64,000 nucleotides of DNA from Argopecten irradians. Taxonomy: Eukaryota; Mollusca; Bivalvia; Pectinida; Pectinidae. Where the stretch lies: contig NC_091140.1 of NCBI RefSeq assembly GCF_041381155.1, positions 28,746,952 through 28,810,951 of the forward strand. Reading direction: 5' to 3'. Positions 10,176 through 59,394 of the stretch are shown here, piece after piece (within the stretch, counting starts at the first letter, position 1; each line of letters starts with the position of its first letter). Under the pieces are notes generated by a model, which worked only from the letters and a program-made list of their open reading frames with translations, was not told the DNA's origin and did not search any database. The translations under genes and the position numbers were made by a program.

Positions 10176-13100
10176 ATGGATCTTGGTAAGTCAACTTGTT
10201 ATTAGTTTTGTAATATAACATATACTATCCTTAGTTTGTTGGCGTTAACGTCCTATCAACAGTCAGGATCATAAGGATGTGCGTGGTTTAGGAGGTGGAA
10301 AAAAACCGGTGTGCCCAGAGAAAAATCACCGACCAGCGGTCAGTACAGTGAACCTGGCAACTGCTTCACGTGGGATTCTACCTCACAGCGTAAATGTGGA
10401 AGCCTTGTTATAAACTTGTAATATGTCGGGACATCTTAACCACTCGACCATCGCGTTCCCGAGGTCATAAAAATGAAACAATACGGTTGCTAGGGATTAA
10501 AGATAGTGTTTCGTATTACAACCATTTAAAATGTTTACAATGGAAACCGTGAATAACGATTTAAACAAACTTGTAAGGGATATCATAAACTTAAATCTTG
10601 AAATGTTTATCTATATAATGTACAATTGTAAATCAGTTTTAATGGCCAGGGGCCAGTTGTTCAAAGTTCTCTCAAAACATCGTTTACCTGTCTCAATTTA
10701 TATGTACATGTTCAAATTTTAGCAGACAAGCTTCTATACCATTGTTCTTCATCCGTTTCGTTTTTACTTGTTTACTTAAAAGTATTGATCGAAGTCTGAC
10801 ATTTTAACTTTCAAACTTTATTTATTAGTCTCTTGACAAAATACATTGTGTAGAGAAACATATTTACAACAGTCAAGAAATGCAACATAGAAGGAGGACA
10901 AATTATATGATTTTTTTAACCATAACTTTGATATGCTTACATAAATTTCTCATTATTTTTATATTCTTTGTGTTCAGAAGCTGTGAACATTTTATGATAT
11001 TTGGTCTGGTGTAATAGTACTCATTGATATATGATTTCCTTTCTAAGGTCAAAAACGGACACTTTAAAAAATAATGTAATTAACACCAATATCATTGGTA
11101 TCACAATAAGTACAAATTCTAAGAATATATTCAATATGGGGCGCTAGTTAACGCGCCTCATAGAATATATTCTTAGAGGAATTGCTCCATACAAGCATGT
11201 TGAACATAAAAGCACAATCCAATCCCTACGTGAACACTTGTATATTTCTATGCTTATCATAAATTTATATACACAGAGATCTAACATTTAAAAGAAAAAA
11301 ATGCAAACATCGTTTTCAATGTCTGATAGAGGTTAAACTCTTATTTTGATTGAAAATATTGAAAGTATTGAAGTGCGTGTATACCATATATCACTATTAA
11401 AGACTATTTTCCCAATACGACAACTTTTTTTGGTCTCTGACGGGCCAGCCGCAGCACAATTTGAGCACCCCTCTAAGACCTCTTTATTCAAATTGTATGT
11501 ATTTGATGGTGTTCATATAGCGGGAAAACATTCTGATTTTTTTTTCATTTCAGTTATGAGTAATCCACATCCTGCCCTTCCTACCTACTATGCCAATGTC
11601 GGGGGTACGATGGTCCCCATAGCGGTCCCTCCTGGACATCTCCCGTACGGACCAGATCCATACTACGTCTACGTCAACGGGGCGTTTGTACCGGTGGTGC
11701 AAGCAGCACCGCCACCTCAGCTAACCCGATACGCAGTGCCGCTACGTCAACCGGTTCCGTTTCAGACTGTTACCCCACCGCCACCACTACCACAACCCCC
11801 AAGGCAGCCACAGCGTCCACAGCGGCCACAGGCGAGTCACGTGGAAAAGGGAGGCGTAACTCCATCGGGAGCCGTTCCTCCTCCGCTGCCAGTGGTAAGG
11901 TCGAATATTTACAACCGACAGTAAACTCAGACGTAAATAAGACAGAATTGATAAAAAAAATAATGCAAATGTTAAAATAGATTAAACTATGGAAACTATC
12001 AACGTATTAAGATGTATATCTGTAATAAAATACAATAATGTACATGAATAGCATGTGAGAATCGAATTCAATATGGTAAGCAAGCACGTGACACATTTTA
12101 TTCCATAGCCTAAACGGAAATAGGATATTTCCTAATAAGCATTCTATTGTCGACTATGAAACGTCTTGAATTATGCATTGTCTATCATACTGGCGGAGTG
12201 AAACTAAGGGAAGTAACTCTGACACACTCAGAATGATTTCCAGAGACATCTCATAATCAGTTTCCTTTTAAGGTGTACTGTTGTATTTGCTGTATTTGTA
12301 CAGCATATTGTTTAGCTGAAAGATTCTTATTTCATATTTTCTTATAATATATTTTGTGGTATTCGATAACACTAATCTTGATTGGTGACATTTTAGGCGA
12401 AGCAATACGCGATGGTATGTGCCATAGACTTCGGGACAACCTACAGCGGGTACGTTTGTTCATGGACTGATGAATTCAAGAATGATAAACTGAAAATGTT
12501 CTGTCGTTCATGGAAGGCTGAGCAGGGCCAGACAGAGAAAACCCCTACAGTGGCCCTTTTTGACCCGAATATGGATTTGAAATATTTCGGATATGAAGCC
12601 GAGAAACGGTATGCCGAGCTAAGTCCAAGGGAACGAAAGCAATGGTATTTATTCCAGAAATTTAAAATGAAACTCTATGAAGCAAAGGTAAGTCAAGGTA
12701 TTCTTCTAAATATCAAAACATGCTTTAAAATGTTTGATCAGATTTTGATTATTTCTTCATGTTTTATCCGCTTTTTTGGTTAAGTCGCTTACATAGACAT
12801 GAATTTTCTATAAGACTTTAGTGAAAGGTCGGTCATTCAGTTTCTAATTCCTAGTTCCTAATTACGAAATAGCGAAGCAGACAATGTAAACTTAATATTA
12901 ATTTCTGAAAAAAAACCTGTTTAACCTTGCTGTTCACACATCAATGTTCTTTTGATATGCTTCGGGTTTTTATCTACAATTGTAGGTTGCTTCTCAGCAT
13001 TAACCACTTTATCATATAATAAATGCAGGATATGGTATATCCAAGCCAATATGTTATTCTATATTGCTAGTAGCGATTACGAGGATAAACAATCACAAGT

Positions 13101-15694
13101 GACAACAATCTTATGATAATTCTATACAATCAGTATTTATGTTCGGATAAACTGAATTTTATGCAATTTTGCTGTTGAAGGATCTGAGCTTAGGAACAAC
13201 GATAAGAGCGTTCAACAGAAATGACGAACAGCCAGCGCTGAAGGTGATATCAGAGGTTCTGAAATATCTAAAGAAAGACGTCCTTGAAACAGCAAGACGA
13301 AAGAGACGATTAAATCTGGACGAGGATAAAATTCGATGGGTCATTACAGTTCCGGCAATTTGGAGTGACAAAGCCAAAATCTTCATGCGAGCTGCAGCAG
13401 ATAGCGTAGGTGAAACATATTTGGCTTGCTTTATTAGGTTAAGTGTCCTATTAATTGTCAGGGTCATTTAAGGACGACCTCCCATGTATGCAATGTCTTA
13501 CGGCGTGTACATGACTGTATGGTTTTGGAGGCTGCAGTATATTCGTTGTATCTCGTTGAGATAGTGGAAATAATTTCTATGGCATGCCACGAAGACACCG
13601 AACAAGTTCACTCCACATGATCACGTGATACTGACACGGGAAAACCAGTCTTCCCACTCACTTTATACTTAACTTTATGCAAAAACAGACAATCTGTGAT
13701 AATCTGATGTTTGTTATTCATGCCTTCAACATATTGACATTTTGTGTAACCCATATTCGACCACTCCAGTCTAGTTTCGTCGAGTTCCGTTAAGACTTTA
13801 TATGCAATTTATATTGTCATTAGTCTGTTTTTGCATTTGTTAAACAGATTTTTAGGCTAAATTATTTTGACATTCTGACAACATTCATTATTTTCACTTA
13901 CCTAATTCAGCTGACTTTAAAATCTATGTTTCATTTCCAGCATTGCTCATATAAGCGCAAAATACTCCAAGTTCTTTTCAACTGAGCGCATGAATTGAAA
14001 TAAATATAAGTAACGTCGTTTATTGTAAAAGTATCGAAGGATATGTTCAAGTGATGAACATATTGATAACCAAATTTCATCTGTCTTGTATGACAGGCCG
14101 GAATTGAAGATGAGAATTTGATGCTCGCTCTGGAACCGGAAGCTGCCGCTCTTTACTGTCGTCACATCAAAGAGGATATGACGTCACCAATCACCACCAA
14201 GCCTTTGGGATCGGAAACGAAGTTCATGGTAGCAGATCTCGGAGGTAAGCATTTTAAATTTCAGAATTTGTTACCACAACATCAAACATCATATGTGTCT
14301 ATGTTATTAAATCCTTTTACGAAAAAATGCATTATGCAAAATTCTGAAGTTTGAATGTCGTATGTTAAATCCTTTAGCCTCCCAAAACATAACCACATAT
14401 TTGGATATGGAGTACAATGTCATTTTTCAAAAAGTTATAATTGTTGACTGGTTCATTTTGAAAAAAAATACCAGTTATTGAATTGCAATACAGAAACAAA
14501 TGTGACATGATTGAAACATAAAAAAACATCCAACTCAATGTTCTTGCATATTTATACAGTCAAGCATAGCGTGCTCTTTACGGTTTCGCAATTTCGTAAT
14601 GACAGATTATCCATTTGTTTCCCGATATCTTTTAAGGGGGAACCACTGATATCACCGTCTACAAGAGATTAGAAAGGGGAGCTCTTCAAGAATTACACGT
14701 ACCGACCGGAGGTCACTGGGGCGGAACAACAGTCGACAAAGCATTTCATAATATGCTGGTGGCTATATTTGGAGCTGAAGTTGTTAAAACTGCGAAGGAA
14801 GAAAGTCCAGGAGAAATGTTGAGTCTTCAACACAACTTTGAACGTGCTAAACGCGACTATGCACCTGGAGAGAGGAAAAACATATCAGTTAAGTTCCCAG
14901 CAATTATGGGAACGATTCTTGAGGAATTGACTGGTGAAACTCCGACAGAATTGATAAAAAATATTGGACCGTCAGCTCAAGGGGTGTCCTTTGTTGCAGA
15001 CAAAATATCTATAAATGATCAGAAATTTGAAACATTGTTCAGTGAATCCCTGGATAACATGATCGTTCATCTGAACGATTTGATGTCGAGGCAAGAAATC
15101 TTTCCTCTGGACACAGTCGTGCTCGTGGGAGGCTACTCTGAGGCGCGCATCATAAGAAAGCGATTTGAGGAATTTTTCAGTGAATCCAGGTTCGTTTCCC
15201 CATCTGACCCGTCTATGGCTGTTATGAAAGGCGCAGCTTTGTTCGGACATGAACCCCTGGCGATCACCTCGCGAGTATGTAAATACACTTACGGAGTGGC
15301 CATATCGGTTCCGTTTGAGACTGGAAAGCACGATGAGAAAAAGAAATTCAAATGTGGTGATGAATATATCTGTGATGACATATTTGATATTCATCTCAGG
15401 AAAGGGCAGAAAGTCGCCATTGGCTCGGAGCAAGTAGTGAAGGAACTAAAGGCTCCAGGGAATGATAATAAGGTTATAGTGGACGTCTACGCGTCCCCCA
15501 AAGTTAATCCCGTGTATGTGACAGAAGACGGATGCATGAGATTGGGCGAGGCGATTATTACTCTGTCAGAGAACATCAAGAAGGACGATCCAATCTTCGT
15601 CAGGATTCTTTACGCTGGAACAGAACTTGAAATGCAAGTGACGGAAGGACAGTCGGGAAAGATTTCACGTGCAAAATTCAAGTCTGTAGGATAG
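10176..15694 (+). CDS. HSPA12-like: HSPA12-like Hsp70-family protein
   Basis: Six coding exons are proposed: 10176-10185, 11554-11894, 12397-12687, 13181-13405, 14097-14244 and 14637-15694. All junctions have GT/AG ends and compatible phases, giving 690 residues; human HSPA12A and HSPA12B are 675 and 686. The first ~117 residues are a Pro/Tyr-rich tail (PPGHLPYGPDPYYVYVNG, then proline runs). The ATPase domain follows: phosphate-1 loop IDFGTTYSGY at about 127-136, VPAIWSDKAK, ALEPEAAALYC, the phosphate-2 motif DLGGGTTDIT near 339 and the adenosine loop VVLVGGYSEA near 500. The family has an atypical actin-like ATPase and lacks a canonical peptide-binding domain; mammalian members act in cytosolic signalling, and bivalves have many copies. 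The tiny first exon is the weakest part: translation could start at the in-frame ATG 11556. Its 3' end faces URAD, and part of the gene is duplicated at 34.6 kb. Confidence 0.9.
10222..10470 (-). repeat. tRNA-derived SINE, family S2, in HSPA12-like intron 1
   Basis: On the minus strand it starts with a Ser/Leu-type tRNA-like head (GGTCGAGTGGTTAAGATG, B box GGTAGAATCCCACGTG), then the core GCAGTTGCCAGG and TTTTTCTCTGGGCACACC, and ends with GACTGTTGATAGGACGTTAA. It is the fullest S2 copy in the window and lies inside the first intron of the gene model. Confidence 0.75.
13445..13680 (-). repeat. R1 repeat, antisense, in HSPA12-like intron 3
   Basis: It reads GTCCTATTAATTGTCAGGG, GGACGACCTCCCATGTATG, GGCATGCCACGAAGACACC and then a GAAAACCAGTC block, the antisense order of R1. 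It is diverged from the other copies, which suggests an old insertion in the intron between 13405 and 14097. Confidence 0.65.
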
Positions 15695-16755: not shown

Positions 16756-19700
16756 TTATCCCATAATGCCCAATAGTCTCAACAACGCGATCTGTTTCAC
16801 TTGTTCCACTCCGTTGCTCACTTCCTCATCGATGTCATTTTCTAGCCGACTTTTCAGTCCCTCCAAGATTGCATCCTTTTTGTTTTTGCGGGCACAGATG
16901 ACAAAGGGAAAACCAAACTTGTTCCTGTATTTCGTATTTCTTTCTTGCATTGCTTCTTTTTCGTCTCGAGTTAAGCTGTCGATACCTGCAGCCTTCTGTT
17001 CGTTTTGGGACTCCACAGTTAAGGCCCCTGCAACCTTCCCGACAAGATCTGGATGTAATCGAAGGACTCCTTGCTGCCCTGAAAGTATACTAAACATATT
17101 TAATACACCAAACGATAACATTTCCACGTCATAAAATGTAGAATCATAGAATTCATACCAAAACACTTATCAATTATATTCACTCCGACGTTAATACGGT
17201 GTTCAAAAAGTAACATGTAGTTTATATATTAGTTTATTTTGCCCAATGTGACTTACCGTCATCCGGAAGATTGTCTAGGAAGTCACCCACAAGCTTATGT
17301 ATGTGATAAACATCCCTGAATGGACGGTGCTGCCACACAGCGGCAGCGCACAGAGAACAATGCTCGATGACGTTACCAAATATGGAGACAAAATCATCGC
17401 AATCCAGTTTGTTTACATCCACTATAGTAAGCAACGTCTCTCTAAACAAAGGACCGTAATGTTAAAACAATATCTAGACATTTTTTTTCAATTTTGTTTG
17501 GTTGTTTAGCTTTAACATCCTACTAACAGTCAGTCTCATTAAAGGTTGGTTATTTTTAGCTCTATTTACAGTTAAGGTCACATAAGGAAGCCCCCCACCC
17601 CTTGTATGCAATGTATTTGTGTGAATGACTGGATGTTTTGGGTACTGTGGCGTTTTCGTGTTATGGCTTCTTACAATAGCAAAACTTTTAGCCATTTTAT
17701 AGTGCTATCTCACTGAAGCATACTGCCAGAGACACCGGCCAGCACGACAGTCTCCAGTTGTGTGGGCATGTCAGTATCTTCATTTTTAAACATTAATCCC
17801 AGGTCCGGGTTGATTTTAAATACTTACGTTTACCAGTAAGATGTCGGTTTCCAAAAAGGTTATATTTTTGGGTTGAAGATATGTTATATAAAAACACCAA
17901 ATTCGCTACAGCATTATGCTCAGGATTTTACAAAAGCACATTATCGATTAGTATCAATGCTTAATTAGATGTTACATGCTTGGTCCCAATATGTCAAACT
18001 ACCTAACTGTTTTTATCATGTAATTATTTTATATACCTTAGCCTAAAATCACTCCAATTGTATTAAAGTAATGAACGTGTCTGTGGATGTAAATTTCTTA
18101 TGTAATGTATATAACTTAATTAGTAACCGTTTCTATGTTCTCTTGTACTATAATTATTCATTTCAAAATATTGTAACTTAATATCCACCTACGGAAAGAA
18201 TTTATATAGATTTTGCCTGTTAATCAATCCGTTTGACTGCAACATCATGTCAATACAGTTTGTTAAAATAAAAAAATGACGATGTTTCAAACACACTGAA
18301 ATTCCCATATCACACTGAATGATATAACACGCGTGTTATGACGTGTGATAAAATAAAAATCTAAATCTATTAATATCCCTTCAAAGTTTTCCGGTAATAG
18401 TCACTTAATAGACCAGATGGATTTCGCCATTCATTCTAGCAATATGTCCGATGTCCTATGAACTTATAGAGCTAAATGCAATGTATACGAAACTATGTCT
18501 TTCTATTGTATTACTTACTTTCACTTTAGGTGTTCCTTATTACAATCAAATATGTATTAGTATACTCCGTACCTCGTAGCGATAACAAGCTGTGACCCAT
18601 CATGATATAATTTATAACATCAGGCAGGTAGTTACTCCAGTGTATCCGCATCATTTTCTTGTTCATTTAAACGTTGAATGTCTTTCATTTGGCATTCATA
18701 GCCAAAATGAATACTAACTGGAGATAGGCAAATTGCATGAAGCGCGCTTTGAATCAGTCTCTGACCAGTTGGCTTTCATTTTGGCTATGAATGCCAACTG
18801 AACTTATATCAATGCCAACTGCGCCTGTTCAGGTTACATAGTGGGACTGCAGTGGATATGTTAATATTTCAATATTAATACTGATTACGTTTATATGTTA
18901 AATATGTACTTTAATATTACTATAATATTTAGAACGCGTAAATAAACAAATTAAATAAATCCTCTTAAAGTTGGTCGCCGATCGCTAACAGGACTCCCAT
19001 GGATATCTAAAATTCCCATCAAATTCCTTGCATGCCGAAATGTACATGGTAACTGTAGCGTTGTTATGAAATTGTATAATTGGATCTCCACTGTTGCCAT
19101 TGGCTAATACATGGTCATATGTAGGTAGATACAGCATAACCTCTATCTTAGAAAATCACTACAGCAGAGAGGATCCATATGCATTACTTGCATGAGGGGC
19201 ATATTCAACAGTAAATAACATATTTTTGGCATTGCATCCACATTGTTTTAACCATGGCTACGTCCCTGACATGCATGTACATCACGAGGGACACATGTAT
19301 ACGTTTTGTACAGTGTCAACTCATAGTTAGAATAATGCAAAATGTGTCCGTAAAATCAAATGACATTGGCCGGGTTTACATGCATACATGTTTGTTGAAA
19401 TATTATGTATCAATTCCACGCCGTAAAATATCAATGCGTTACAAGTATTAAACGCCTTGAATATCAATGATACATCACCAGCTGTTCCATGTTATGTATT
19501 CTCTTTTCATATCAATTACAATATAGGAATACTCAAAAGATTGGTAAGCGTGCATTATCAGTTCAGTAATATTATCAGTGTAGGGATCTTTATGTTTAAA
19601 CTCGAGAAACGCAGAGAACCACATCATGTAACATAGCATGTAAGTAATCATAATGCTTCTAGAAATCGCATCATGTAACATAGCATGTAAGTAATCATGT

Positions 19701-19903
19701 TAGTAATCATAATGTTTCTATAAATCGCATCATGTAACATATCATGTAAGTAATCATAATGATTCTATAAATCGCATCATGTAAGTAATCATAATGTTTT
19801 TATAAATCGCATCATGTAACATATCATGTAAGTATTCATAATATTTCTATAAATCTGCAATAGGTACATATAATATACAATGTAGGGTAACTTACGTCGG
19901 CAT
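16756..19903 (-). CDS. URAD: OHCU decarboxylase, copy A
   Basis: Exons on the minus strand: an 8-nt coding first exon (ATGCCGAC, nearest copy 19903-19896), exon 2 at 17441-17257 and exon 3 at 17078-16756 with the stop. Phases fit throughout, giving 171 residues (human URAD 173). The enzyme converts 2-oxo-4-hydroxy-4-carboxy-5-ureidoimidazoline to S-allantoin, the last of the three-step uricase pathway. Visible family motifs are DDFVSIFGNVIEHC, AAAVWQHRPF, LHPDL with the expected catalytic His at about 73, ESQNEQ with the partner Glu at about 91, and FGFPFVICAR at 119-128. The end (GIMG) has no SKL-type peroxisomal signal. Exon 1 is present in 18 near-identical tandem copies, any of which could supply the start codon and splice donor, so the true 5' end cannot be told. 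No inactivating change is visible. Confidence 0.88.
17505..17770 (-). repeat. R1 repeat, antisense, in URAD A intron 1
   Basis: It contains TTTAACATCCTACTAACAGTC, GCAATGTATTTGTGTGAATG, TTTTATAGTGCTATCTCACTG and GACACCGGCCAGCA in R1 antisense order. A collinear copy with the same extra spacer (AAGGTTGGTT) lies at 44360-44610 in URAD C, so this insertion predates the segmental duplication. Confidence 0.7.
18690..18800. repeat. Inverted repeat
   Basis: TTGGCATTCATAGCCAAAAT at about 18690 and its complement ATTTTGGCTATGAATGCCAA at about 18779-18798 flank about 70 bp. It could form a hairpin and may be a small fold-back element within URAD A intron 1. Confidence 0.6.
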
Positions 19904-20332
19904 TTTCTCCGTCTGTCGATGTACACACAATGTAGGGTAACTTACGTCGGCATTTTCTCCGTCTGTCGATGTACACACAATGTAGGGTAACTTACGTCGG
20001 CATTTTCTCCGTCTGTCGATGTACACACAATGTAGGGTAACTTACGTCGGCATTTTCTCCGTCTGTCGATGTACACACAATGTAGGGTAACTTACGTCGG
20101 CATTTTCTCCGTCTGTCGATGTACACACAATGTAGGGTAACTTACGTCGGCATTTTCTCCGTCTGTCGATGTACACACAATGTAGGGTAACTTACGTCGG
20201 CATTTTCTCCGTCTGTCGATGTACACACAATGTAGGGTAACTTATGTCGGCATTTTCTCCGTCTGTCGATGTACACACAATGTAGGGTAACTTACGTCGG
20301 CATTTTCTCCGTCTGTCGATGTACACACAATG
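18916..20332 (+). repeat. Tandem 1.4-kb duplication, first copy
   Basis: From ATTACTATAATATTTAGAAC to the end of the first 50-bp array, this block is repeated directly after itself at 20333-21732. The two copies are nearly identical; small indels (for example ATAACATATTTTTGG versus ATAACATTTTTGG) are seen. A region of about 47-bp direct repeats (CATCATGTAACATAGCATG units, 19619-19845) precedes the 50-bp array in both. The small reading frames in each block are duplicates and not genes. Confidence 0.9.
19881..20330 (-). repeat. 50-bp minisatellite, 9 units, carrying URAD exon 1
   Basis: Nine exact-length units start at 19881, 19931 and so on to 20281, almost without variation (one TTATGTCGG variant in the eighth). 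Read on the minus strand each unit contains GACAGACGGAGAAAATGCC, then GAC|GTAAGT: the URAD start codon, eight coding bases and a consensus 5' splice site. Single homologous units lie at 46561-46600 (copy C) and 32955-33000 (copy B). Confidence 0.93.
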
Positions 20333-21732
20333 ATTACTATAATATTTAGAACGCGTAAATAAACAAATTAAATAAATCCTCTTAAAGTTGGTCGCCGATC
20401 GCTAACAGGACTCCCATGGATATCTAAAATTCCCATCAAATTCCTTGCATGCCGAAATGTACATGGTAACTGTAGCGTTGTTATGAAATTGTATAATTGG
20501 ATCTCCACTGTTGCCATTGGCTAATACATGGTCATATGTAGGTAGATACAGCATAACCTCTATCTTAGAAAATCACTACAGCAGAGAGGATCCATATGCA
20601 TTACTTGCATGAGGGGCATATTCAACAGTAAATAACATTTTTGGCATTGCATCCACATTGTTTTAACCATGGCTACGTCCCTGACATGCATGTACATCAC
20701 GAGGGACACATGTATACGTTTTGTACAGTGTCAACTCATAGTTAGAATAATGCAAAATGTGTCCGTAAAATCAAATGACATTGGCCGGGTTTACATGCAT
20801 ACATGTTTGTTGAAATATTATGTATCAATTCCACGCCGTAAAATATCAATGCGTTACAAGTATTAAACGCCTTGAATATCAATGATACATCACCAGCTGT
20901 TCCATGTTATGTATTCTCTTTTCATATCAATTACAATATAGGAATACTCAAAAGATTGGTAAGCGTGCATTATCAGTTCAGTAATATTATCAGTGTAGGG
21001 ATCTTTATGTTTAAACTCGAGAAACGCAGAGAACCACATCATGTAACATAGCATGTAAGTAATCATAATGCTTCTAGAAATCGCATCATGTAACATAGCA
21101 TGTAAGTAATCATAATGCTTCTTTTCGCATCATGTAACATAGCATGTAAGTAATCATAATGTTTCTATAAATCGCATCATGTACGTAAACATAATGTTTT
21201 TATAAATCGCATCATGTAACATATCATGTAAGTATTCATAATATTTCTATAAATCTGCAATATGTACATATAATATACAATGTAGGGTAACTTACGTCGG
21301 CATTTTCTCCGTCTGTCGATGTACACACAATGTAGGGTAACTTACGTCGGCATTTTCTCCGTCTGTCGATGTACACACAATGTAGGGTAACTTACGTCGG
21401 CATTTTCTCCGTCTGTCGATGTACACACAATGTAGGGTAACTTACGTCGGCATTTTCTCCGTCTGTCGATGTACACACAATGTAGGGTAACTTACGTCGG
21501 CATTTTCTCCGTCTGTCGATGTACACACAATGTAGGGTAACTTACGTCGGCATTTTCTCCGTCTGTCGATGTACACACAATGTAGGGTAACTTACGTCGG
21601 CATTTTCTCCGTCTGTCGATGTACACACAATGTAGGGTAACTTACGTCGGCATTTTCTCCGTCTGTCGATGTACACACAATGTAGGGTAACTTACGTCGG
21701 CATTTTCTCCGTCTGTCGATGTACACACAATG
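20333..21732 (+). repeat. Tandem 1.4-kb duplication, second copy
   Basis: Direct repeat of 18916-20332, abutting it. The coordinate offset is 1415-1417 bp. It includes the 47-bp repeat zone (about 21036-21255, with slightly different units) and a second 50-bp array. The very high identity implies a recent event or ongoing homogenisation. Confidence 0.9.
21281..21730 (-). repeat. Second 50-bp minisatellite, 9 units, carrying URAD exon 1
   Basis: Nine units at 21281, 21331 and so on to 21681, each with the same minus-strand ATGCCGAC|GTAAGT cassette as the first array. It lies further upstream of the URAD coding exons. It is followed at about 21.75-22.15 kb by the conserved single-copy 5' region shared with copies B and C. 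Confidence 0.93.
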
Positions 21733-22209
21733 CTTTCGTTTTAATGTCCCGTTTATACAATGAAGGCTAAAGACATATTACTACTGAATACATTGACCTA
21801 CATATAACGTAAATTAAACCTACTGTACGTTAGTTGTTGTTCTACTGTGTAGGGAGATATGAAACCGTTGAACTCAGTCGTGAATAATACGCATACCATT
21901 TTTGCATACGGGTAAACACTCGAATTTATTGCTGCACAGAAAATTGGATTGAGATTTGTTTTGTCTAGACAATTTAGTTTGGTACAAAACATGTTGTCAG
22001 TAGTTATTTTTCATTTTTTTTGTATTTCAATTAACAATCGAATTTCGAATAGAGTAACGGAATTTGTACATAAAGAAAACCCTGGTTATATATTCATTTT
22101 TTCTTCAAAGTCATATCAACAAGTGCATTTAAAGGTAAGTGCTGACTCTTTCTCACTGATCACTATACTAAAATAATAAGGAATGCAGATATCGCGCGGA
22201 ACTGCAATA

Positions 22210-22330
22210 ACAATAGGTATTGTTTGGTTTAGTTTTTTAATCTAATATCCTATTAAGAACCAGGGCCATTTAACGACGGCCTTCCGTGTATTTAGGAGAC
22301 TTCGGTATATTCATGTTGTGACTCACTGTA
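22210..22330 (-). repeat. R1 repeat fragment, antisense
   Basis: TAATATCCTATTAAGAACCAGGG, GGACGGCCTTCCGTGTA and GGAGACTTCGGTATATTCAT follow the R1 antisense order, then a sense copy begins, giving an inverted pair. Confidence 0.6.
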
Positions 22331-22880
22331 ATAGTCTTTCCATTTCTTAAGCACTATCCCACTGAAGCATGCTTGCCCTGCTGTAGCTGCTGTTATTGTA
22401 TGATCGTAAAAGGCGACTTAATTTATGATCTTATCTGTTCTCCTCTTCCTAACAACTTACTTGACATCGCCTCACTTTAAGCCTTCTGGTGAGTGTTCGC
22501 CCCTGTGAGGTAGGCTCTGGGTTCTGTCCCCTAGCCGATACACCACCACAGTCTATAAAGTGGTAGTTTCTGCTCCTGCTTAGAACTCAGCATTAAGGGA
22601 GTATTGTTGTATTGGCCAAAGAGTGGGACGACTAGTTTGTCCATTGACAGTATAATGAGACCGGGTGTCGTGTGTTGCTTGGTGTCTTCGGTGGCATGCT
22701 TCAATGTATATAGCACTATAAAAAGGGCAACAGTTCTACTATACAAGAAGACACAACATGAATATACCGCAATCTTCCAAAACACGCACCTCGCACAACA
22801 TACACGAAACACACCGCATACATGTGAGGCCATCCTTACATGACCATAGCTGTTAATAGGACGTTAATTAAAAAAAGAAA
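22331..22880 (+). repeat. R1 repeat, sense, long copy
   Basis: This is one of the fullest R1 copies. It has GATCGTAAAAGGCGACTTAA, a tRNA-like zone (TGTGAGGTAGGCTCTGGG, TTCTGTCCCC), CTATAAAGTGGTAGTTTCTG, GTGACCGGGTG-like block (here GAGACCGGGTG), TGGCATGCTTCAA, CTATACAAGAAGACACAAC, CGCACCTCGCACAAC and the tail CTGTTAATAGGACGTTAATT followed by A-rich and CA-rich DNA. The tail is the same as in the S2 tRNA-SINEs, so R1 may be a SINE with a LINE-derived 3' end. The reading frames 22531-22843 are repeat sequence. Confidence 0.8.
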
Positions 22881-22909
22881 AAAAAAAACACACACACACA
22901 CAAAACCAT

Positions 22910-23115
22910 TGACATATAATGTGACCGGATGGGTTAGGTTTCTTGGTGTCTTCGGCGGCATGCTTTAGTGGGATAGAACTAGAAAAAGAGAAAGACATTC
23001 ACTATTACAGGGAGACACAACACGAATATACCACTCACCCACTCAAAGCATACACGGGAGGCCGTCCACAAATGACCCTGGCTGTTCATAGGATATTACA
23101 ATTATAAACCAAACC
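22910..23115 (+). repeat. R1 repeat, sense, 5'-truncated
   Basis: GTGACCGGATGGGTTAGG, CTTCGGCGGCATGCTTTAGT, GGGAGACACAACACGAATAT and GGCTGTTCATAGGATATTAC. Together with 22331-22880 it makes two R1 copies in a row. A similar shortened tail is seen at 30175-30345. Confidence 0.7.
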
Positions 23116-23639
23116 AAACTATAGGTGTTGGTACTGCAGCCGCACGAGATCTCTACATTCCTTATTGTTTACGTATATTGATAAGTGAGGTGAAATTATA
23201 TCGAGTGTTTACTCATATACATTGACATGGCCCCTGTGTATACAAGATTGTGCCCAGGGTAAATTTTTGTCCCGGCCAACGATTGGCTTGTTATTTATGA
23301 ATTTCCAAATGAAAATGTTTTCTGAGGTAATTATTCCTAGATAACAATGATATGAATTTGGTAATCAAGATATCAATTTTGATAATGAATAGTTAAACAT
23401 ATAAAAATTTTAGGACTTTTAGTGCAAAATGCACCTTATTTAAAAATGGTTACTCTGGTTTTAGTTTGAGCTGAAGGACTTTTATTCTATCTAATGTTAT
23501 ATGAAAACATAGACTTTAAGATCTCTGCATTAAAGAACACAGAAGCTAACTAATATTCGGTTGTTTTCATAATACATTACAAAACTTTAACACTGTGGTC
23601 TATGTAAAATTATTTAGTTGGTTGTTTTCTATAGGAGTT
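23116..23639. other. Intergenic, nothing recognised
   Basis: AT-rich, with no gene-like frame or repeat boundary seen. Confidence 0.45.
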
Positions 23640-23900
23640 AGTATGCATATTTTTCGAGCGGTTTCACGTTCCTCTAGATACTGACGATCCCAACTTACAT
23701 TGACAAAGGACACCAGCTTACGTACATGTACATAAGATGTAGATCAAGGCATATTTTAATGGCATGTCACTACCCGCCCATTACAAATTTGACGATAATA
23801 CGATACCATTGTGTGCACATCGACAACCGAATACAATGCCTCGTCCTTGAAATTATTCACCGAGTATACTGCTCAAATGGCATTAGATGGTATTCTGGTG
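23640..23900 (+). repeat. Inverted partial copy of the URAD 5' region
   Basis: Its reverse complement matches the URAD upstream region of copy C (GTAATGGCGGGT, CCTTGA-CTACATC-TGATGTACATG, AACGTGAAACCGCTCG) and copy B (CGTGACACCGCTCGAAAAAT). At 23825-23845 it has an exon-1-like stretch, ATCGACAACCGAATACAATG, with CCTC then GTCCTT in place of the splice donor. It is therefore a broken relic of exon 1 and its promoter, in opposite orientation to A-C. No exon 2 was seen nearby. Confidence 0.6.
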
Positions 23901-25142
23901 TAACAATATCTTTTATGTGTAAAATCACAAAAATCAACGATTTAAACGAATTGATAAAAACATGATTCATCCGATTATGGAACATGATATTTATCACAAC
24001 AGTTCACACTGACCCGAAAATATTTTTGACCAGGAATTTAAATCTAGACTGGAATGAAGGTAGACCGAATCACCTGTCTCTTAATAGGATACTCGGATAG
24101 TGTTTACCAATAAACAGAAAGTAAAAAAAAAAAAAACATTTTAAGAGACAGATGAAACATTTTAGCCGATACAGTAAATCATGTTGGTAATTTGTTGCTT
24201 AGTCATTGCTATTTCTTACATTCAATTTTTTTTTGATGACTAATATTTAGAGCAACTGCAACTTTAGAACCCGTGTCCATTACCTTTAATATGCGCAGAT
24301 GCATTTTACACATAAAGGTTTTCAACATAACATTTTAAACCATAAACGGCAAAGATATATCATGTACACAAAAACGTTACACAAAGGACAAAGGAACATT
24401 ATATGCATTTATGATATTCAATTCACTATCGTCTATTGATGTTTTACAAATAATTAACAACATTATATAGTTTAATGTTTGAAGTTTAACAGGGTGACAT
24501 GTTTTGCCCACTCTCATTCACTGTTTGTATTTTACAAAGTTATTTGAACAAACTTGAGTTTTGGTTTTAGACAGGGTTAATAAGGTAAGTCATTTAATGA
24601 ACTAAATATTTGAAATATTATTTGTTCACAAACTCTCATATTTTTTAATAAAAATGACAGTATATAGTTGAAGTTCTGCTGTTAATTTCAAAGGGTAAAA
24701 TAATCTTAGACTGACTATAACGTTTAAATCACGAAAATCTTTAGACAAGTTTTAGTACTCAGATGATTGAGGATTTTACCTTGATTCACGTCAAAATACG
24801 GACTGATGACTTTTTATTCCAGTCTTATCATCAATCGTTAATTTGCGTTGTACCAGAGTGAATCAAAAATACATGGGTAACAGAAATGTAAGACATGCTA
24901 TACATCTTTTTTCAACCAGTTTGATAAACATAAAATGAGCCACAACACACATGTTCTATAACTGACTGAAATTGAGCATTATAACAAATAAGGAACGTTT
25001 GGACAACCCTGTAGATGTCCACGTTTTGTATTGAACATCCTACATAAGAGTGGTATCAATTTGAAAGTTTACGAAGTACAAAGGTATACGGCAAGGTTAT
25101 GCTATTGACAAATATTCTTTTTTTTTCTAAACCAATGATTTT
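23901..25142. other. Intergenic, nothing recognised
   Basis: AT-rich DNA without coding exons or recognised repeats. Confidence 0.45.
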
Positions 25143-31040: not shown

Positions 31041-31255
31041 GAAGGGTACCACATGCAACCCCCCCCAAACCTCCGAACCAATATTTTTCTGAGCCCTTAT
31101 GACCAACTGATCACAAATCAAAATGTTAACATTGCATAAGTTGGGATGAACTTCTAGTTATGACGTCATAAAGATGGCCGCCATCTCGATTTTCACTAAA
31201 ATTTGAAAAAGAATCATAACATTGACATTTTTCAACCGAAAGAGACAAATGAGGT
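31041..31255. other. Repeat-like junction sequence
   Basis: Non-coding stretch with ATGACGTCATAAAGATGGCC that separates the integrase remnant from the truncated URAD copy B. Its origin is not recognised. Confidence 0.4.
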
Positions 31256-33390
31256 ATCAAAATGAATGGACGGTGCTGCCACACAGCGGCTGCACACAGA
31301 GAACAATGCTCGACGACGTTCCCAAATATGGAGACAAAATCATAGAAATCCAATTCGTTTACATCCGCTATATCTCTCTAAAGAATAGAACCAAATATTA
31401 TCATTAGATATAATATCATTCATTCGTTGAAATGAACAAAGTAAGTGGTGATATTTGCAAGTAGTCTGAATACAAGATGAGTTGGTCTGATACCAAACGG
31501 TGTCGGCGAGTTGTCATGTAATAGTGCGCTTAAGGCCTACCTGAGACATCTATCTGTCATCAAGTCTAATAGCAGGTGTGCAAGGCCAGAGTATCTCGAG
31601 GTAACATGTGTGAGATCTAACTTAAAACAAAGTCACATATGCATATGGTGTATATCGGGTAGCAGTATATATGCATTCAATTTTTTCGGGCCCTTATCAA
31701 TAATAAGCAGTAGTATGCAATTTCATGTATGATATCTAACTTAAAACACAATCCCTTCTGTGTGCATGTGCTCCACAATTTTAACCATTCACTTCTTATA
31801 AAATTGGTAAAGGTAAATTTCATATTTGCGTTCATCCATGCTATTCCATTCTTCATCACACGTGTCAACGTCTTTTATTGCACATTACATGTGTTCATCA
31901 TTACAATTAAATATACATTAAAATTGCTCGGCCCCCGTAACGATAATTAGCTATGACATATAGAATGTATGAAATAAGCACATTTATATGTATGCATGTA
32001 CATGCCGACAAGGCAAATTTATGTTTGTACTATGTAAAGAAGTAGTCAGCATAATACATATGGTGTATGTAAAAGTAATCGACACTGACCTAGTTTATAT
32101 GCATATGCTGCAATACATGTATTATGTATGAATTGCACGTCTTAAAGACCTGCTCTGGCGAAAAGTCAAAATTTTCTGTTGACTAACTTTTTTCAATTCA
32201 GATAATTGAGAATTGGAATTCACACTAAAGCTTTAAATGTAAAACAAATAATATAATGGTGTGCTTGATTTTGAGCTATATTGAATCAAAGATGATTATT
32301 TTTTATATACAATTTTCATTTCGGTGAACCTAAGAAAGATTCACAGAAAAAAATTACTTGATATAACTAAACATGTTGTAGCAACCGCGTGTTAAATAAA
32401 AATACCAAAAATTGTACCAAATTCACCTTTCACATCTCTACCAAAAATTGTACCAAATTCACCTTTTCAAAATGATCACCAAATTGTTCATTTCTTAAAA
32501 TACGTGTATAAAAAAATCTACAAGCATTAGAAGTCTAATTTTTTGACATATTTTCTTTATGGGAACTGGCTATCGATTGAAACAATTAGTTTTTGAGAAT
32601 CATAAAAACTCTTTGAGTACTGATAAACGAGACTTCAACGAGACTGAATCCTCACCAGGGCAGATTCTTAATTATCTAGTCATTACAAGTGAAGTTAACG
32701 TCTTGAAAATTAAAAATGAATCCTTACATTTCATATCATATGTATTCTCTATTCACTGCTAAAATAAAGACTTTTTCTAAGTTCTCGTGGCCCTGTTAAC
32801 TCTCAAGAATGTTCTAATAAGTGTGGATCTAATAATATTAAAAGTCGAGGAGTAGATCAGAGTATCGCACCAGGTAGTAATATAATATAGTATATATAAC
32901 ATAGCAATAAAAGCGCATCTATAAATCAGCAACACTTATATAATATATGCTATAAACTTACGTAGTCATGATTTTCGTCTGTTGATGTGCACACAAAACG
33001 TCTAATTTGTGTAATGGCAGGTAGCGAGTTAATGTAGGTCAGCTGGTATTCTGCTGCAGTGTAAGCGTACGGTGTTAAATCTAGGGAAACGTGACACCGC
33101 TCGAAAAATGTGCATACTATTGCACACCTTTATGTGTACGATTAAACACGTGAATGCCATGGAATTGCATTTAAGTAATATAAAGGTTTGTGTCTTTCAA
33201 TTTAAGGTTTATATAGCATATATGAAGGCATTTCAATCATCTCAAATACGTCTATTATATACTTTTAGGAACACTTTACATGGAACGTAGACTAGTTTTG
33301 AGAAAAATGTCTAACTGCTGTCTTTGGAGCAAAACATGTAGGTTTGTAGAAATTAAACTCCTGAATTAGATATTTTTTTCTTTAAAACAT
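31256..33390 (-). repeat. Segmental duplication copy B (URAD unit, truncated)
   Basis: Collinear with copies A and C from within URAD exon 2 through intron 1 (TTACAATTAAATATACATTA; GTAACGATAATTAGCTATGAC; GTTTATATGCATATGCTGC), exon 1 and the upstream region (GTAATGGCAGGTAGCG; GTGACACCGCTCGAAAAAT; GTACGATTAAACACGTGAAT). It ends abruptly inside exon 2; exon 3 and the 3' flank are absent. Confidence 0.75.
31259..32969 (-). pseudogene. URAD pseudogene, copy B
   Basis: Exon 1 is conserved (ATGACTAC|GTAAGT, coding 32969-32962). Exon 2 is recognisable at 31376-31259 on the minus strand (YDFVSIFGNVVEHC, AAAVWQHRPF) after an acceptor TTCTTTAG. Near its 5' end about 10 bp are missing relative to copies A and C, which shifts the frame after exon 1, and the exon is cut after QRPF. 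Exon 3, with the catalytic His and Glu, is not present. It cannot make the enzyme. It keeps a single 50-bp-type exon-1 unit, so it shows the state before the expansion seen in copy A. Confidence 0.8.
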
Positions 33391-40666: not shown

Positions 40667-41748
40667 TTAGGTCATCTGACTCGGAGCCATTTGGCTGAAA
40701 CTTGCATGAAATGATACTGACGTGGTCCCGACAAAGTGTTGTTATTTTTCGGAAAGATCTGAAATCCAAGATGGCCGCCACAGCCGCCATCTTGAAAACA
40801 CATTTTGAACTTCTCAAGTTCTACCGATGCGATTTGGATGAAACTTGCATGAAATGATCCTGACATGGTCCCGACAAAGTGTTGTTATTTTCCGGATCGA
40901 TCCGGCAACCAAGATGGCCGCCACAGCCGCCATTTTGAAAAACACATTTTGAACTTCTCAAGTTCTACCGGTGCGATAAGGCTAAAACTTGTATGAAATG
41001 ATCCTGACATGATCCGACAAAGTGTTGTTATTTTTCGGATCGATCCGACATCCAAGATGGCCGTCACAGCTGCCATTTTGAAAACACATTTTGAACTTCT
41101 TCTCAAGTTCTACCGGTGCGATTTGGCTGAAACTTTCATGAAATGATCCTGACATGGTCCCGACAAAGTGTTGATTTTTTTGGGTCGATCCGAAATCCAA
41201 CATGGCCGCCACAAATGCCATCTTGAAAACACATTTTGTTTTTCTCAAGTTCTACCGGTGCGATTTGGCTGAAACTTGCATGAAATGATCATGACTTGAT
41301 CCCGAAAAAGTGATCCCGAAAAAGTGTTGTTATTTTTCGGGTCGATCCGAAATCCAAGATGGCCCCCACCTTGAAAACACATTTTGAAAATCTCCTCAAG
41401 TTCTACCGGTGCGATTTGGCTGAAACTTGCATGAAATGATCCTGACATGGTCCCGACAAAGTGTTGATTTTTTTGGGTCGATCCGAAATCCAAGATGGCC
41501 GCCACAAATGCCATCTTGAAAACACATTTTGAACTTTTTCTCAAGTTCTACCGGTGCGATTTGGCTGAAACTTGCATGAAATGATCATGACTTGATCCCG
41601 AAAAAGTGTTGTTATTTTTCGGGTCGATCCGAAATCCAAGATGGCCGCCACCTTGAAAACACATTTTGAAAATCTCCTCAAGTTCTACCGGTACGATTTG
41701 GATGAAACTTGCATGAAATGATCCTGACATGGTCCCGACAAAGTGTTT
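40667..41748 (-). repeat. Satellite-like tandem array, about 145-bp units
   Basis: About seven units, each with CATGAAATGATCCTGACATG, CCCGACAAAGTGTTGTTAT, TTCGGATCGATCCGAAATCC, AAGATGGCCGCCACAGCC, CATTTTGAACTTCTCAAGT and TACCGGTGCGATTTGGCTG. Units vary by indels, and two adjacent units (around 41250-41730) share the same deletion, indicating higher-order duplication. The reading frames on the minus strand are unit shadows. Confidence 0.9.
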
Positions 41749-42900
41749 TTAACAATATTCAAAATAGCTATATATTACGATGCAATATCTATTTCATTTT
41801 TATTTGTTGTGGGAGTTACCTTCCCTAAACACTACCTACCGAAAATACCATGTATCTTGATAATAACACAGGTATGTATAAACAATGACATAAATACTGC
41901 TTACACTCTTTACTTATACATCGCATTCAAGAAACGTATTATTGCCTAACCCATCTGATCAAGTCTCAAGAGATCGATTTTGAAGACCCTAATCAGTGGT
42001 GGGTCCACCCAATATATTGGTTTCTCAGTCCACATGACCATGGGTAGTATTATTCAGCTGCTGACATTTTGTTTCAATATACAACTTAATATGACACTTG
42101 AAATGAAGTTTCAAATTTAGATGCTTAGTGTTTCTCGATTGCGATCTTCAAGTGTGCAACGACCGCCGAAGTGAAACGAAAGGAAGTAACTCTTAAGAAA
42201 TTTTCTCCATGTCTCGTGAATATATAAGGTTGTATTTCATAACATCTTCGACGTGTAATATGTATCCATTAATTTTTTTTCCAATTTGGTGTGGTTTTCC
42301 GTTAGTGTTGTTGCAATTTTAATGCACACAAATGACGGCAAAGTTTTTTTTCTTACCATGTGATGTTAGTCAATTATTCGAGTAATTGATCCAATCAGAT
42401 TGCTAGCATTGTTTTCAATTTCCATCACATAAGGCTTTGTCATAGTATAAGTGCAAATACGTTGAGACCTAAAACGTTTTTATATTATTCGTAAAAATAT
42501 TTCTGATTGTGATTTTAAAATATTGAATAAAAATAAAGCATATTGATGAGTGTACTGATGACTTTATTTTTGTTTCCATGGCTTATTTTTATCGCGAATG
42601 ACATCGAGGCTACTTATGAAGTCACAAGAAGCTTCACTGACGGGGGCAGCGAGAAATTTGATTTAGCAATAGCGATAACAATATACACTAACACGCGTCA
42701 TTCAATTTGTCTGCACTCCTGGGCTAATTATGGGACCATAAATCCCCCAAGAAGATAGTTTAATGCCTATATAATGTACAAGTCGAAAACTTACTTGTGT
42801 GGCTAAATTCATTGTCAACTCTCGTTCATTGATATTCAAGGAAATAAAAACGCTACCAATCATACCAATTTACGGTATCAAATCGAATTTAATTACAACT
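41749..42900. other. Intergenic, includes a relic of HSPA12-like intron 2
   Basis: Near 42165-42235 GCCGAAGTGAAACGAAAGG, AAGTAACTCT and TATATAAGG resemble 12194-12290 in intron 2 of the HSPA12-like gene (GCGGAGTGAAACTAAGGG, AAGTAACTCT). A 71-residue frame at 42543 begins with a hydrophobic stretch but has no recognised motif and is not called. Confidence 0.4.
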
Positions 42901-43262: not shown

Positions 43263-46200
43263 TCATTCCCTCACAATGCCTAACAGTCTCAACAACGCGA
43301 TCTGTTTCACTTGTTCAACTCCGTTCGTCACTTCCGCTGTGACGTCATTTTCTAACCGACTTTTTAATCCCTTCAAAATTGCATCCTTTTTGTTTTTGCG
43401 GGCACAGATGACAAAGGGAAAACCAAACTTTTCCCTGTATTTTGTATTTCTTTCTTGCATTGCTTCTTTTTCGTCTCGAGTTAAGTTGTCGATACCTGCA
43501 GCCTTCTGTTCGTTTTGGGACTCCGCAGTTAAGGCACCTGCAACCTTTCCGGCAAGATCTGGATGTAATCTAAGGACTCCTTGCTGCCCTGAAAGTAAAC
43601 ACACATGTTCAATACTCCAAATAATACAATCTCTCAATTCTACTGTAGTTTTTTTTTAGTTTTTTTAAAGTTGCCGTCAATATAGACATTTTTGTTTGGG
43701 GAATTTCCTTCACTTGTTACAGTCTCAAAATTGTTGAAGATGTGATAACTCATCGCTCGCTGTGCATCTAAATTCTTCACATGAAAATATTTCCATTTGA
43801 TTGGATAAAAGAGAAATAAGCGCATATTTCCATGTTACCAATCATTGCACCGTGATATCATAATTTGTATAAAAGTACTTATTATCATATTTACTTCAAA
43901 TTTATTATCTATCAAATTCAACCAAACTAACATTATCTATCACGTAACACATCTATTTCACATATAAATCTAAATGTTTTCAACCATGACTTACCGTCTT
44001 CCGGAAGATTGTCTAGGAAGTCACACACGAGTTTATGTATGTGATAAACATCCCTGAATGGACGGTGCTGCCACACAGCGGCTGCACACAGAGAACAATG
44101 CTCGACGACATTACCAAATATGGAGACAAAATCATCGCAATCCAGTTCGTTTACATCCACTATACCAATCAATGTCTCTCTAAAAGAAAATTGCATATAA
44201 TTAAGCAATAATTGCAAAATAAATCGCCTTTCTCTTTAAAACACAAATTGTGAAATTCGCATTGACCTTTAAAGCCAGGGGTGATTTTAAAGTCGACTTG
44301 ACCTTTAGGATAATGAACACCAACATGTAGACAACATGTACAACAACATGTAGACATGTTTATGTTTTGTTATACTATATTTAACGTCAAGGTCACTCAA
44401 GGTTGGTTGTTTACTTTATTTACGTCTTGGGTCATTTAAGGACGATCATACCTGTATGCAATAATGTGTTTGTGTGAATGTCGGTATATAGTGGGAGGCT
44501 GTGGTGTGTTCGTGTTGTGTTTCTATAAATAGTGAAAACACTTTAACTTTTATAGTGCTATTTTACCGAAGCTTTCCGCCAAAGACAGCAGACAGCAAGG
44601 CGACTTCCAAAGTGATGCGTGTGTGTGAATGTCTGTATACTTTTTGTTATGGAACTAAGATTGACCTAGGGTTGATTGGATTACACCTTTAAAATGTTAG
44701 TTTCCACGAAGGTCACATATATCTCTAGCGTATGGATTTATAATTAAGTGGATTCAATATTTTTCTTGAATGAAATATTATATTAATATATTAATACCAA
44801 ATTCGCTACTGCATAATGCTCTTTATCACGGCCATAAGGATCTCTGCTCCTGACTTTCTTTTCGTGCAGAGGTAACAACTCAATCAAAATAGAAATTTGG
44901 TGTTATTTCACAATATCGGGATTTTTTTCGGTTATTAGCAATGTTTGATTATTTTTACATGCTTAATTCCATTATTGAAAAAGGTCATCTCCTAACCAGA
45001 CGGTTTAATACAAAACATTGCCACCGAGAAGCGCCACTTACCTTGATCTTTTAAACAAATTAATAATTCGTCTTCGCCATTTTCTCATAATATGTAAATC
45101 GTCTCTAATGTCGACGGATATTGTTATGTGTAGATAAATTATCAATTTCTTGAAAGGATCAAGTTAAGTGGTGCTTCTCTGTGGTAATGGTTTGCATGTA
45201 GTCTGAATAGGAGATGACATGGCTAAGTATGGTGTGTCAGGGCCATAGTACGTATATATGCATTCAACCTTTCTGGACTCTTACCGATAACAACCAGTGT
45301 TATACCATATTATGTGTGAGCTCTAACTTAAAACACAGTTCCTGCTGTGTTCTTGAAAATTTTAACCATTTATTACTTATAAACCTGACATAGGTAAATT
45401 GCATACGTGCATTCATCCATGCCATTACATTTATCACGTGTCGACGTCTTTCTATTGTTATCATTACTTTCACTTTACATGTGTTCACCATTACAATGAA
45501 TATGCATTAAATGTTTCGGTTCTGTGATGATAACAAACTGTGACATTTCATATAAGGTATGGAAATAAGGACATTTGTATGCATGTACACGACGAAAGAT
45601 ATATATGTTTGTACTATGTATACGAGTAGTTAGCATAGTGCATATGGTGACTGATTTTGATGCACATGTCATTTTAAATTAAAACGACAACTGATGTCAT
45701 CCAAGACTACACCCATTTACACACAATTCCTCAAATAACATTCCAAATAAGGCCAGCATTTTGTTTTTATTACTGAAGCTGACCGTCCACTAAATATATT
45801 CTTGCGCCTACTCGCCCGAAGACGATCTGTATGCCAGGGTTGCCTTTAAATGCACTGATTTTTATATATATTTTGCACTTTAAATTCTAATAAATATATA
45901 TAATTTAAACTCAAGAAACATAATCACTCTTTTCACTGCACATGCTAATCCATTTCAATGATTGTATAATCAATTGATATAATTATATATATGTATGTAT
46001 AAACGATGGTTTATTTTTACCGTCAAAACAAACGAGAGACAGATAGACTAAATACTCAGTATAGACAGGTCTTATTCATACCTATATGGGTTATATATAA
46101 GGGAATTGATATGAAATATTATCTACAGTTTTACATGTGTTTAAACTCTCAATGTATAGACCTTTACTTAACTTGTCTGATATCAGCGGCTTTAAAATTC

Positions 46201-46575
46201 CACGGTGTCGCTTTAAAAACCTACCAACGGGGGTGGGAGGGGGGGGGGAGAAGAATCCCGGCTAAAATGGCAATGACTTGGTTTATATGCATATGATAGA
46301 ATATTATGTTAAAAAATTCATGTCTTTAAATATGCAATCATTAGAAGCGTATTTAACCTCTTGAAAATAAATGATAAATTATTACCTTTCGTATGTTATA
46401 TATAGTACTGTAATCTCGCATGGCCCCTTGTTAAGACTGGTTAGCGGTTAGCATGCTTATCAGTATGGATACAATAATGTTAAAGCTCAGAGAATCACAC
46501 CATGTAAGTAAAATTCATCTATATATCTAACACGTTTATATCGTATATATACTATACCATAACTTACGTAGGCAT
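43263..46575 (-). CDS. URAD: OHCU decarboxylase, copy C
   Basis: Minus-strand exons: 46575-46568 (ATGCCTAC|GTAAGT), 44179-43995 and 43588-43263 with the stop. Phases agree, giving 172 residues, one more than copy A; the C-termini differ (GIVRE here, GIMG in A). Family motifs are intact: DDFVSIFGNVVEHC, AAAVWQHRPF, LHPDL with the catalytic His, ESQNEQ with the partner Glu, and FGFPFVICAR. It differs from A at scattered positions (for example DLAGKVAGALTAES against DLVGKVAGALTVES), including many conservative ones, consistent with a kept function. It has only one exon-1 unit and so has a normal 5' structure. No peroxisomal SKL-type end. Role: last step of urate to S-allantoin. Confidence 0.9.
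44360..44610 (-). repeat. R1 repeat, antisense, in URAD C intron 1
   Basis: AAGGTTGGTTGTTTAC, GGACGATCATACCTGTATGC, AATGTGTTTGTGTGAATG and TTTTATAGTGCTATTTTAC correspond block by block to 17505-17770 in copy A, so this is the same ancestral insertion. Confidence 0.7.
44611..46560. other. URAD C intron 1, remainder
   Basis: No exon or gene. Stretches match intron 1 of copies A and B (CACCATTACAATGAATATGC; GATGATAACAAACTGTGAC; CTTGGTTTATATGCATATG). A run of G (46230-46245) and a small A/T-rich spacer are present. Confidence 0.55.
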
Positions 46576-55700: not shown

Positions 55701-56921
55701 TGTCGAGTCTTTTTTCACAGGGTGGTGTGGTTATGTAATGTATTTTGTCCCCTGATTTGATGTTGTCATCCGAAACTTTCTCTATGAATCCTCTCTTTTC
55801 TTGGTCAGATTGATTTTTGTTTGATTTATCACGTCCTTGGTAACAGTATATGATATCTCCATACATCTTCAATAGGATGTTGCCTTTTTAGTGGTTCTCG
55901 AAGAGCGAGTCGTTTTACGACATTAATCGTTCTGTTTCTTGTGACAAATTCATTTGTCGGAAGTTCTTGGTGGTCCTCACGCCAGGGCAACTTAGCAGTA
56001 TATCTGTTGTTATTGAAGGATATGGAAGTATTCTGATATTCTTCCATGTAACTCGTAGAACTAGTAGAGGTGTCTGGTGTATCCTTTACTCCAAGAGATT
56101 AAATTTTTCAAAACTTTTTTAAGTCAGCTTCCTCGGATTTGTGGTTTATCAAAATGTTTATGACCGCAGTATTCATGAATCCCATCGAAGATGCAACAGT
56201 TGTTGAGTTTTTGTGTGTGATGATTGGACCGGATAACAGATATCTTAATTTGGACTTGACAGCTGTCGGTCCACTCCCACGAATCACTTTGTTCTGTACT
56301 ATTGACCAATAGTAGTCTGCTCCAATTAGAAGGTTTATGTTGAATTTCTCATGATGTGTCACAGCGTGAGCTAGCTGTAATCCTCGTAAATAAGGCAACT
56401 TTGCAGCGTTAATCCGGGGCTTTCATCTCTATTGGCGCGGCTATCTTTGGTAAGATTACTACCTCCATCGGGATTCTCTCTCCGCTGACAGATTCAATGT
56501 ATATGCGTGCAGTTTTTAGATGACGTATCTGACCTTCACTTCCCCCAAAAGCAGCTATTTTCATGTTAATAGTTCCAGTAGTCTCGATATTCAGTTATTT
56601 GGCTAAATCCTCGGTCATGAAAGAATTCTGTGCTCCTTCGTCTAAAAGAATGCTTGCTGTAGCGTGTTGAAATTCCGGCCATACTGGGGCTATAGCGGTC
56701 TTTAATAAAACCTCAAAATGAGATGTAATCGTTGTTGAGTGAAGCGCTGCGGTTTTCTCCTCCTTGTCAGCACCATTATTTCCTTCCGATACATATACCT
56801 TAGGATTCCACGATTGTGGAATCTGGTCATTACATATACTAGTGTGATGTCTTTTCCCGCATTTTCTACACTTGAATTTGGAATGACAGTTACTCACTTT
56901 ATGCGAACCAAAACAGTTTAA

Positions 56922-59394
<2,473 letters not shown>

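Follow-up and report, generated by a model that had tools for sequence, protein, structure and literature searches.

The predicted start-codon exon of a scallop URAD copy lies in two tandem arrays of nine 50-bp units

URAD copies at the locus

The window, by which we mean the whole 64-kb stretch of Argopecten irradians DNA analysed here, carries on its minus strand three copies of URAD, a gene for uric-acid breakdown, which we call A, B and C. Copy A has an exon 2 at 17257..17441, with 17441 as its 5' end, and an exon 3 with the stop codon at 16756..17078. When the eight coding bases ATGCCGAC are placed before these two exons, exon 2 completes the phase, as had been proposed from the letters alone, and the joined frame is open over 171 amino acids. 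The encoded protein is an OHCU decarboxylase (Pfam PF09349, E 9.9e-44, 150 bits), with residues 13-166 matching positions 1-154 of the 155 in the profile, and it also matches solved structures of the OHCU decarboxylase family. In copy C, a single exon 1 (ATGCCTAC, 46568..46575) with the donor GTAAGT at 46567-46562 is followed by exon 2 at 43995..44179 and exon 3 with the stop codon at 43263..43588; joined, the three exons give an open frame of 172 residues, again an OHCU decarboxylase (PF09349, 155.9 bits).

For copy B, we found a single relic of exon 1 (ATGACTAC, 32962..32969) with the donor GTAAGT at 32961-32956 and a fragment of exon 2 at about 31246..31377, which by eye has a short deletion near its start. 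Beyond these two pieces the search gave no other exon of copy B, which, judging from its remnants, is a pseudogene fragment. About 1.6 kb upstream of the partial exon 2, the first exon and its donor can still be made out. The sequence-only reading had claimed that copies B and C carry the first exon once, at a distance from exon 2 that matches that in copy A. The single exons were found as claimed, and the distances agree between copy A (2454 bases from the nearest of the repeat units described below) and copy C (2388 bases), but not in copy B, where only about 1.6 kb separates the two.

An 8-nt first exon

The evidence that an exon of only eight nucleotides begins the protein comes from P0001, a 172-aa protein with five member sequences that was read from a 1153-base contig; its source code, lgn, we take to denote the Logan assemblies. 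P0001 is identical to the predicted protein of copy C at 171 of 172 residues and sides with C at all 15 of the differences between A and C within residues 1-169. Its N-terminus, MPTETL, is the product of the 8-nt exon 1 joined to exon 2. The start and stop codons of copy C lie about 3.3 kb apart, far more than the length of the contig, and P0001 must therefore derive from spliced RNA. Judged by this protein, copy C does have a coding exon 1 of 8 nt, which in copies A and B is conserved as sequence. The earlier prediction that this is the first exon of URAD thus found its support in copy C, with no different first exon in P0001.

A chance motif was rejected on the basis of P0001 and of the background frequency. 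Outside 19800-21800, the minus strand has two occurrences of ATGN5GTAAGT, namely the exons of copies B and C, and 100 second-order Markov sequences contained it 0.23 times on average and three times at most. Two other translation starts were rejected as well. In copy A, no ATG lies in frame within exon 2 or between it and the nearest upstream stop, and an in-frame ATG just upstream of exon 2 in copy C would begin the protein with MQFSFR, which is not how P0001 begins.

The N-termini of relatives differ at this end of the protein. Pecten maximus P0002 begins with MSEKTLL, of equal length; P0003, P0004 and P0010 have other N-termini, and P0005 begins later. The NCBI-named P0003, also from Argopecten irradians, has a different N-terminus where MPT stands, and a start-codon exon of such a size can easily be overlooked. 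We take P0003 to be the product, with another first exon, of a fourth URAD copy, D, whose first match lies 45 bases past the end of the window, within C7:28810700-28818700. No ATGN5GTRAGT was found in the approximately 16.6 kb upstream of exon 2 of copy D, a stretch that includes 23 N, which suggests that exon 1 is not universal in the URAD cluster. By eye, the first exon of P0003 matches a stretch that precedes exon 2 of copy D by about 0.2 kb. Because this stretch is, presumably and by its look, a tRNA-derived repeat, the gene model of P0003 may be wrong.

Two arrays within one tandem duplication

The first exon that is single in copies B and C is present in 18 tandem units in copy A. TRF reported arrays, each of period 50 and 9.1 copies, at 19877-20332 (99% matches) and 21277-21732 (100% matches), and a fuzzy unit search found 18 units, every one in minus-strand orientation. 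The distal array (21277..21732), which would be transcribed first, consists of nine identical 50-bp units (21283-21732) and a 6-bp partial unit, CATTGT (21277-21282). The proximal array (19877..20332) likewise has nine units (19883-20332) and a 6-bp partial unit. In this orientation, a unit contains a single ATG, that of ATGCCGAC, and a splice donor comes immediately after these eight bases. Seventeen of the units are letter-identical; the exception is unit 11 (20233..20282) in the proximal array, in which a single base change, CpG to TpG on the plus strand, turned the donor GTAAGT into ATAAGT. The arrays are hence donor-bearing minisatellites, with a canonical donor in gene orientation in 17 of 18 units, and the 18 cassettes of start codon and donor counted previously come down to 17.

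The identity of 17 of the 18 units suggests that the array is young or has been homogenised, and active homogenisation or selection could also account for such near-perfect identity. More can be said about the relation between the two arrays. They lie within a tandem duplication of 1.42 kb, the left copy of which occupies 18916..20332 (left edge good to about two bases) and the right copy 20333..21732, ending exactly where the distal array ends. The unique part of the duplication aligns over 701 columns with one mismatch, located at the edge, and three gap columns, one of them at the edge and the other two a two-base indel, and the 50-bp arrays differ by one mismatch in 456 columns. The two arrays are one array copied within a very recent tandem duplication, and an independent origin of the two was rejected on this ground. 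Two minisatellites of nine units, as the sequence-only reading described them, are indeed present, but as a single array duplicated together with its surroundings. Over its 262 columns, the third part of the block, a stretch of 47-bp repeats, shows seven mismatches besides 15 gap columns and is more diverged than the unique part; one clean duplication does not by itself explain this. These repeats, about 47 bp long but also present in forms of 35 and 59 bp, are less regular, adjoin each array (19637-19871 and 21037-21270) and are where the two duplicated blocks differ most.

Searches of the genome (1508 contigs; all match counts are lower bounds) placed the unit at this locus only. A 200-base query made of two units and the promoter-side flank gave at least 8 matches, all at this locus, with the flank in only one of them, and a dispersed satellite was accordingly rejected, for a search that skips very common words and scored two candidates. 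With a 671-base piece of the duplicated block, at least 45 matches were obtained, that is, the two tandem copies and 43 partial matches of 72-93% identity, which have the look of a dispersed repeat. The family includes part of the duplicated intron, at 18930-19280.

A three-way alignment of copies A, B and C delimits a conserved core from TTGTGTG to GTAAGTT, and in copy A the array has CATTGT on both sides, a 6-bp direct repeat. Direct repeats were also looked for near exon 1 of copy C, and none was found. We infer that copy A once had a single 8-nt coding first exon, as B and C do, and that two CATTGT repeats enclosed this start codon together with its donor and the last part of the leader. 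Slippage of this single 44-bp core, or unequal exchange, would have produced nine 50-bp units, and the later 1.42-kb tandem duplication would have copied the array together with its intron flank to give 18.

Donor choice and coding outcome

A promoter-side flank that can be aligned with copies B and C (21733..22050) adjoins only the distal array; in the genome search its first 100 bases came up a single time, and the proximal array is preceded by the duplicated intron. The flank of copy A contains TATAAA at 21757-21752, absent from B and C and possibly a chance occurrence. With near-identical units and a flank found once, the arrays differ from a cluster of alternative first exons, each with its own sequence and promoter flank. 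The idea that 18 usable cassettes multiply the choices of initiation finds no support in this arrangement, nor in the identical coding outcome described next.

We built in silico the mRNA for each GT donor. Donors 1-9 yield an identical 171-aa protein and leave 0-8 copies of a 3-codon uORF in the leader, since every unit left there reads ATG CCG ACG TAA, or MPT-stop. Donor 10 and donors 12-18 yield the same protein behind at least 63 upstream ATGs, and donor 11 is dead. We would expect little translation from donors 10 and 12-18 unless transcription started inside the intron. The amplification is coding-silent, as all 17 GT donors encode the same 171-aa protein. Pairing with U1 was calculated at -5.3 kcal/mol for all GT units, against -8.9 for the donor of exon 2, and of the 429 minus-strand GT sites in 17442-24000, 36 equal or exceed the unit donor in strength, the 17 units being among them. 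Because all units pair equally, strength cannot choose between them, and position might choose instead.

If copy A is transcribed, its RNA would most likely start at the flank beside unit 1 and meet that unit first. The first or an early donor would then be used and the other units lost with intron 1, which would make the amplification close to neutral. Exon 1 of the promoter-proximal unit 1 (21696..21703, donor GTAAGT at 21695-21690) is accordingly, from its position, the most likely copy to be used. We therefore favour, with a probability of roughly 0.6, an origin by slippage between CATTGT repeats followed by the 1.42-kb duplication, the result being tolerated as neutral, with the promoter-proximal unit in use if the gene is transcribed. 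Since every usable unit gives the same protein, the amplification is probably a neutral accident. That the dead donor of unit 11 has stayed uncorrected is in keeping with this.

Alternative explanations

The alternative that survives best, although we consider it improbable, is that copy A is silent or nearly silent, its arrays having expanded in a promoter region of no further importance. Copy C is represented by P0001 with its five member sequences, and no protein or transcript of copy A is among the best 120 of 129 protein matches, in which the highest identity to A is 90%. Copy A matches P0001 at 153 of 171 residues, at the edge of 90% clustering; a copy A protein of full length would probably be placed in a separate 90% cluster, and a hidden member of an existing one is conceivable. 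This absence is weak evidence, because 50-bp repeats and near-identical paralogs break short-read contigs. Against silence, the 171-aa frame of copy A is open between consensus splice sites, and dN/dS between A and C is 0.26 at a dS of 0.19, one pairwise value that is not attributable to A. Measured against seven outgroup proteins, derived changes number seven in A and eight in C, with three undecided. The HPDLVG of copy A was considered as a sign of decay and rejected, as this motif occurs in 49 and HPDLAG in 61 of the best 120 of 129 matches.

Somewhat less probable still is that the array tunes expression, with donors competing and the amount of protein set by the MPT-stop uORFs that each later donor leaves in the leader. 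Unit number together with the donor point would then act as a dial on URAD output, and unit number would vary between animals, a proposal to which we give the same low weight. The series of 0-8 uORFs before an unchanged protein is what such a dial would need, and donors that are equal to one another and weaker than that of exon 2 would permit competition. However, the array looks young and is common to no paralog, and use of the first donor would remove all other units and leave no uORF.

An assembly artefact, with two haplotypes joined or reads misplaced in the 1.42-kb duplication and an incorrect unit number, has a slightly smaller chance. Near-identical tandem blocks with an equal unit number, as seen here, are typical of false duplications. 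However, the block was found as a tandem pair only, the genome search having given no haplotig of it elsewhere, and its differences are concentrated in the 47-bp stretch with nearly none in the unique part. Even if the second copy of 1.42 kb were false, an array of nine units would remain.

We regard it as quite unlikely that transcription starts in many units, as a multiplied promoter plus first exon similar to MSY2 of DDX3Y. Such a model could draw on the core TTGTGTG..ATC.ACAGACG, which lies just upstream of the ATG inside every unit, and a start directed by the TATAAA of the flank would fall close to the border of unit 1. It is difficult to reconcile with a flank alignable to B and C that was found once, beside the distal array, and with the duplicated intron that precedes the proximal array. 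The least probable model, which can hardly be correct, uses the units as internal exons of 17 nt, through the AG before ACGGAG that the cores of A, B and C have in common, and would give leaders with several mini-exons, but this AG is preceded by 10 pyrimidines in 18 bases against 12-13 at the acceptors of exons 2 and 3, and adjacent units would leave an intron of 33 nt, shorter than usual animal introns.

Known parallels

The human IFI6 gene (G1P3, 6-16) contains a minisatellite that reportedly, according to Turri et al. in 1995, provides several splice donors. Tandem units supply donors at an exon/intron boundary in IFI6 as in copy A, but the unit of copy A also holds the start codon. In IFI6 the start codon precedes the donors, and the isoform depends on the unit used (PMC4526556), in contrast to the single protein given by each GT donor of copy A; several IFI6 donors are reported to be in use, whereas those of copy A are predicted. 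The MSY2 unit of DDX3Y was amplified in primates, and in testis transcription begins within its repeats (PMC3039753). Like the unit of copy A, the MSY2 unit lies on the 5' side, single in a relative and tandem in one lineage; it is about 100 nt long, present in 3-4 copies and non-coding, in contrast to 18 units with a coding start.

The W repeats of Epstein-Barr virus are long units, each with a promoter and exons, and the repeats add to the protein. This repeat (IR1) includes the Wp promoters and the exons W0, W1 and W2 (PMC5834210). The W repeats resemble copy A in being tandem units with an initiating exon apiece and differ in being long and viral, whereas the units of copy A have 50 bp and leave the protein unchanged. 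Protocadherins and UGT1A have many large, diverged first exons with their own promoters and one shared set of downstream exons. Copy A resembles them in joining many first exons to one downstream set and differs in its near-identical units and single promoter-side flank. Among the matches listed in searches of open-licence full texts, we recognised no minisatellite or other tandem unit that carries a start-codon exon with its donor. The sequence-only reading knew of no described gene like this, which goes too far in view of IFI6 and DDX3Y; minisatellites that bear donors or start sites are known, and one that bears an initiating coding exon was not found in our searches.

Copy A thus offers a clean, coding-silent amplification of an initiating exon, probably young and most likely neutral. 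The gene could survive such an amplification with the same coding outcome for every choice of unit. Nature has here built a construct in which 17 equal donors, set in near-identical surroundings at 50-base intervals within each array, face one acceptor, which makes it a very good substrate for tests of donor choice. The donor picked would tell whether distance from the cap, order of transcription or competition decides.

Other features of the window

A literature search gave no paper combining scallop with ureidoimidazoline decarboxylase. Elsewhere in the window, reading frames of an HSP70/HSPA12-like gene lie at 12412-15694, where a 313-aa frame has 30-38% identity to its best database relatives. 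A tandem repeat of 145 bp with about 7.4 copies occupies 40682-41751, and minus-strand frames at 52916-60096 resemble, by eye, a BEL/Pao-type retroelement.
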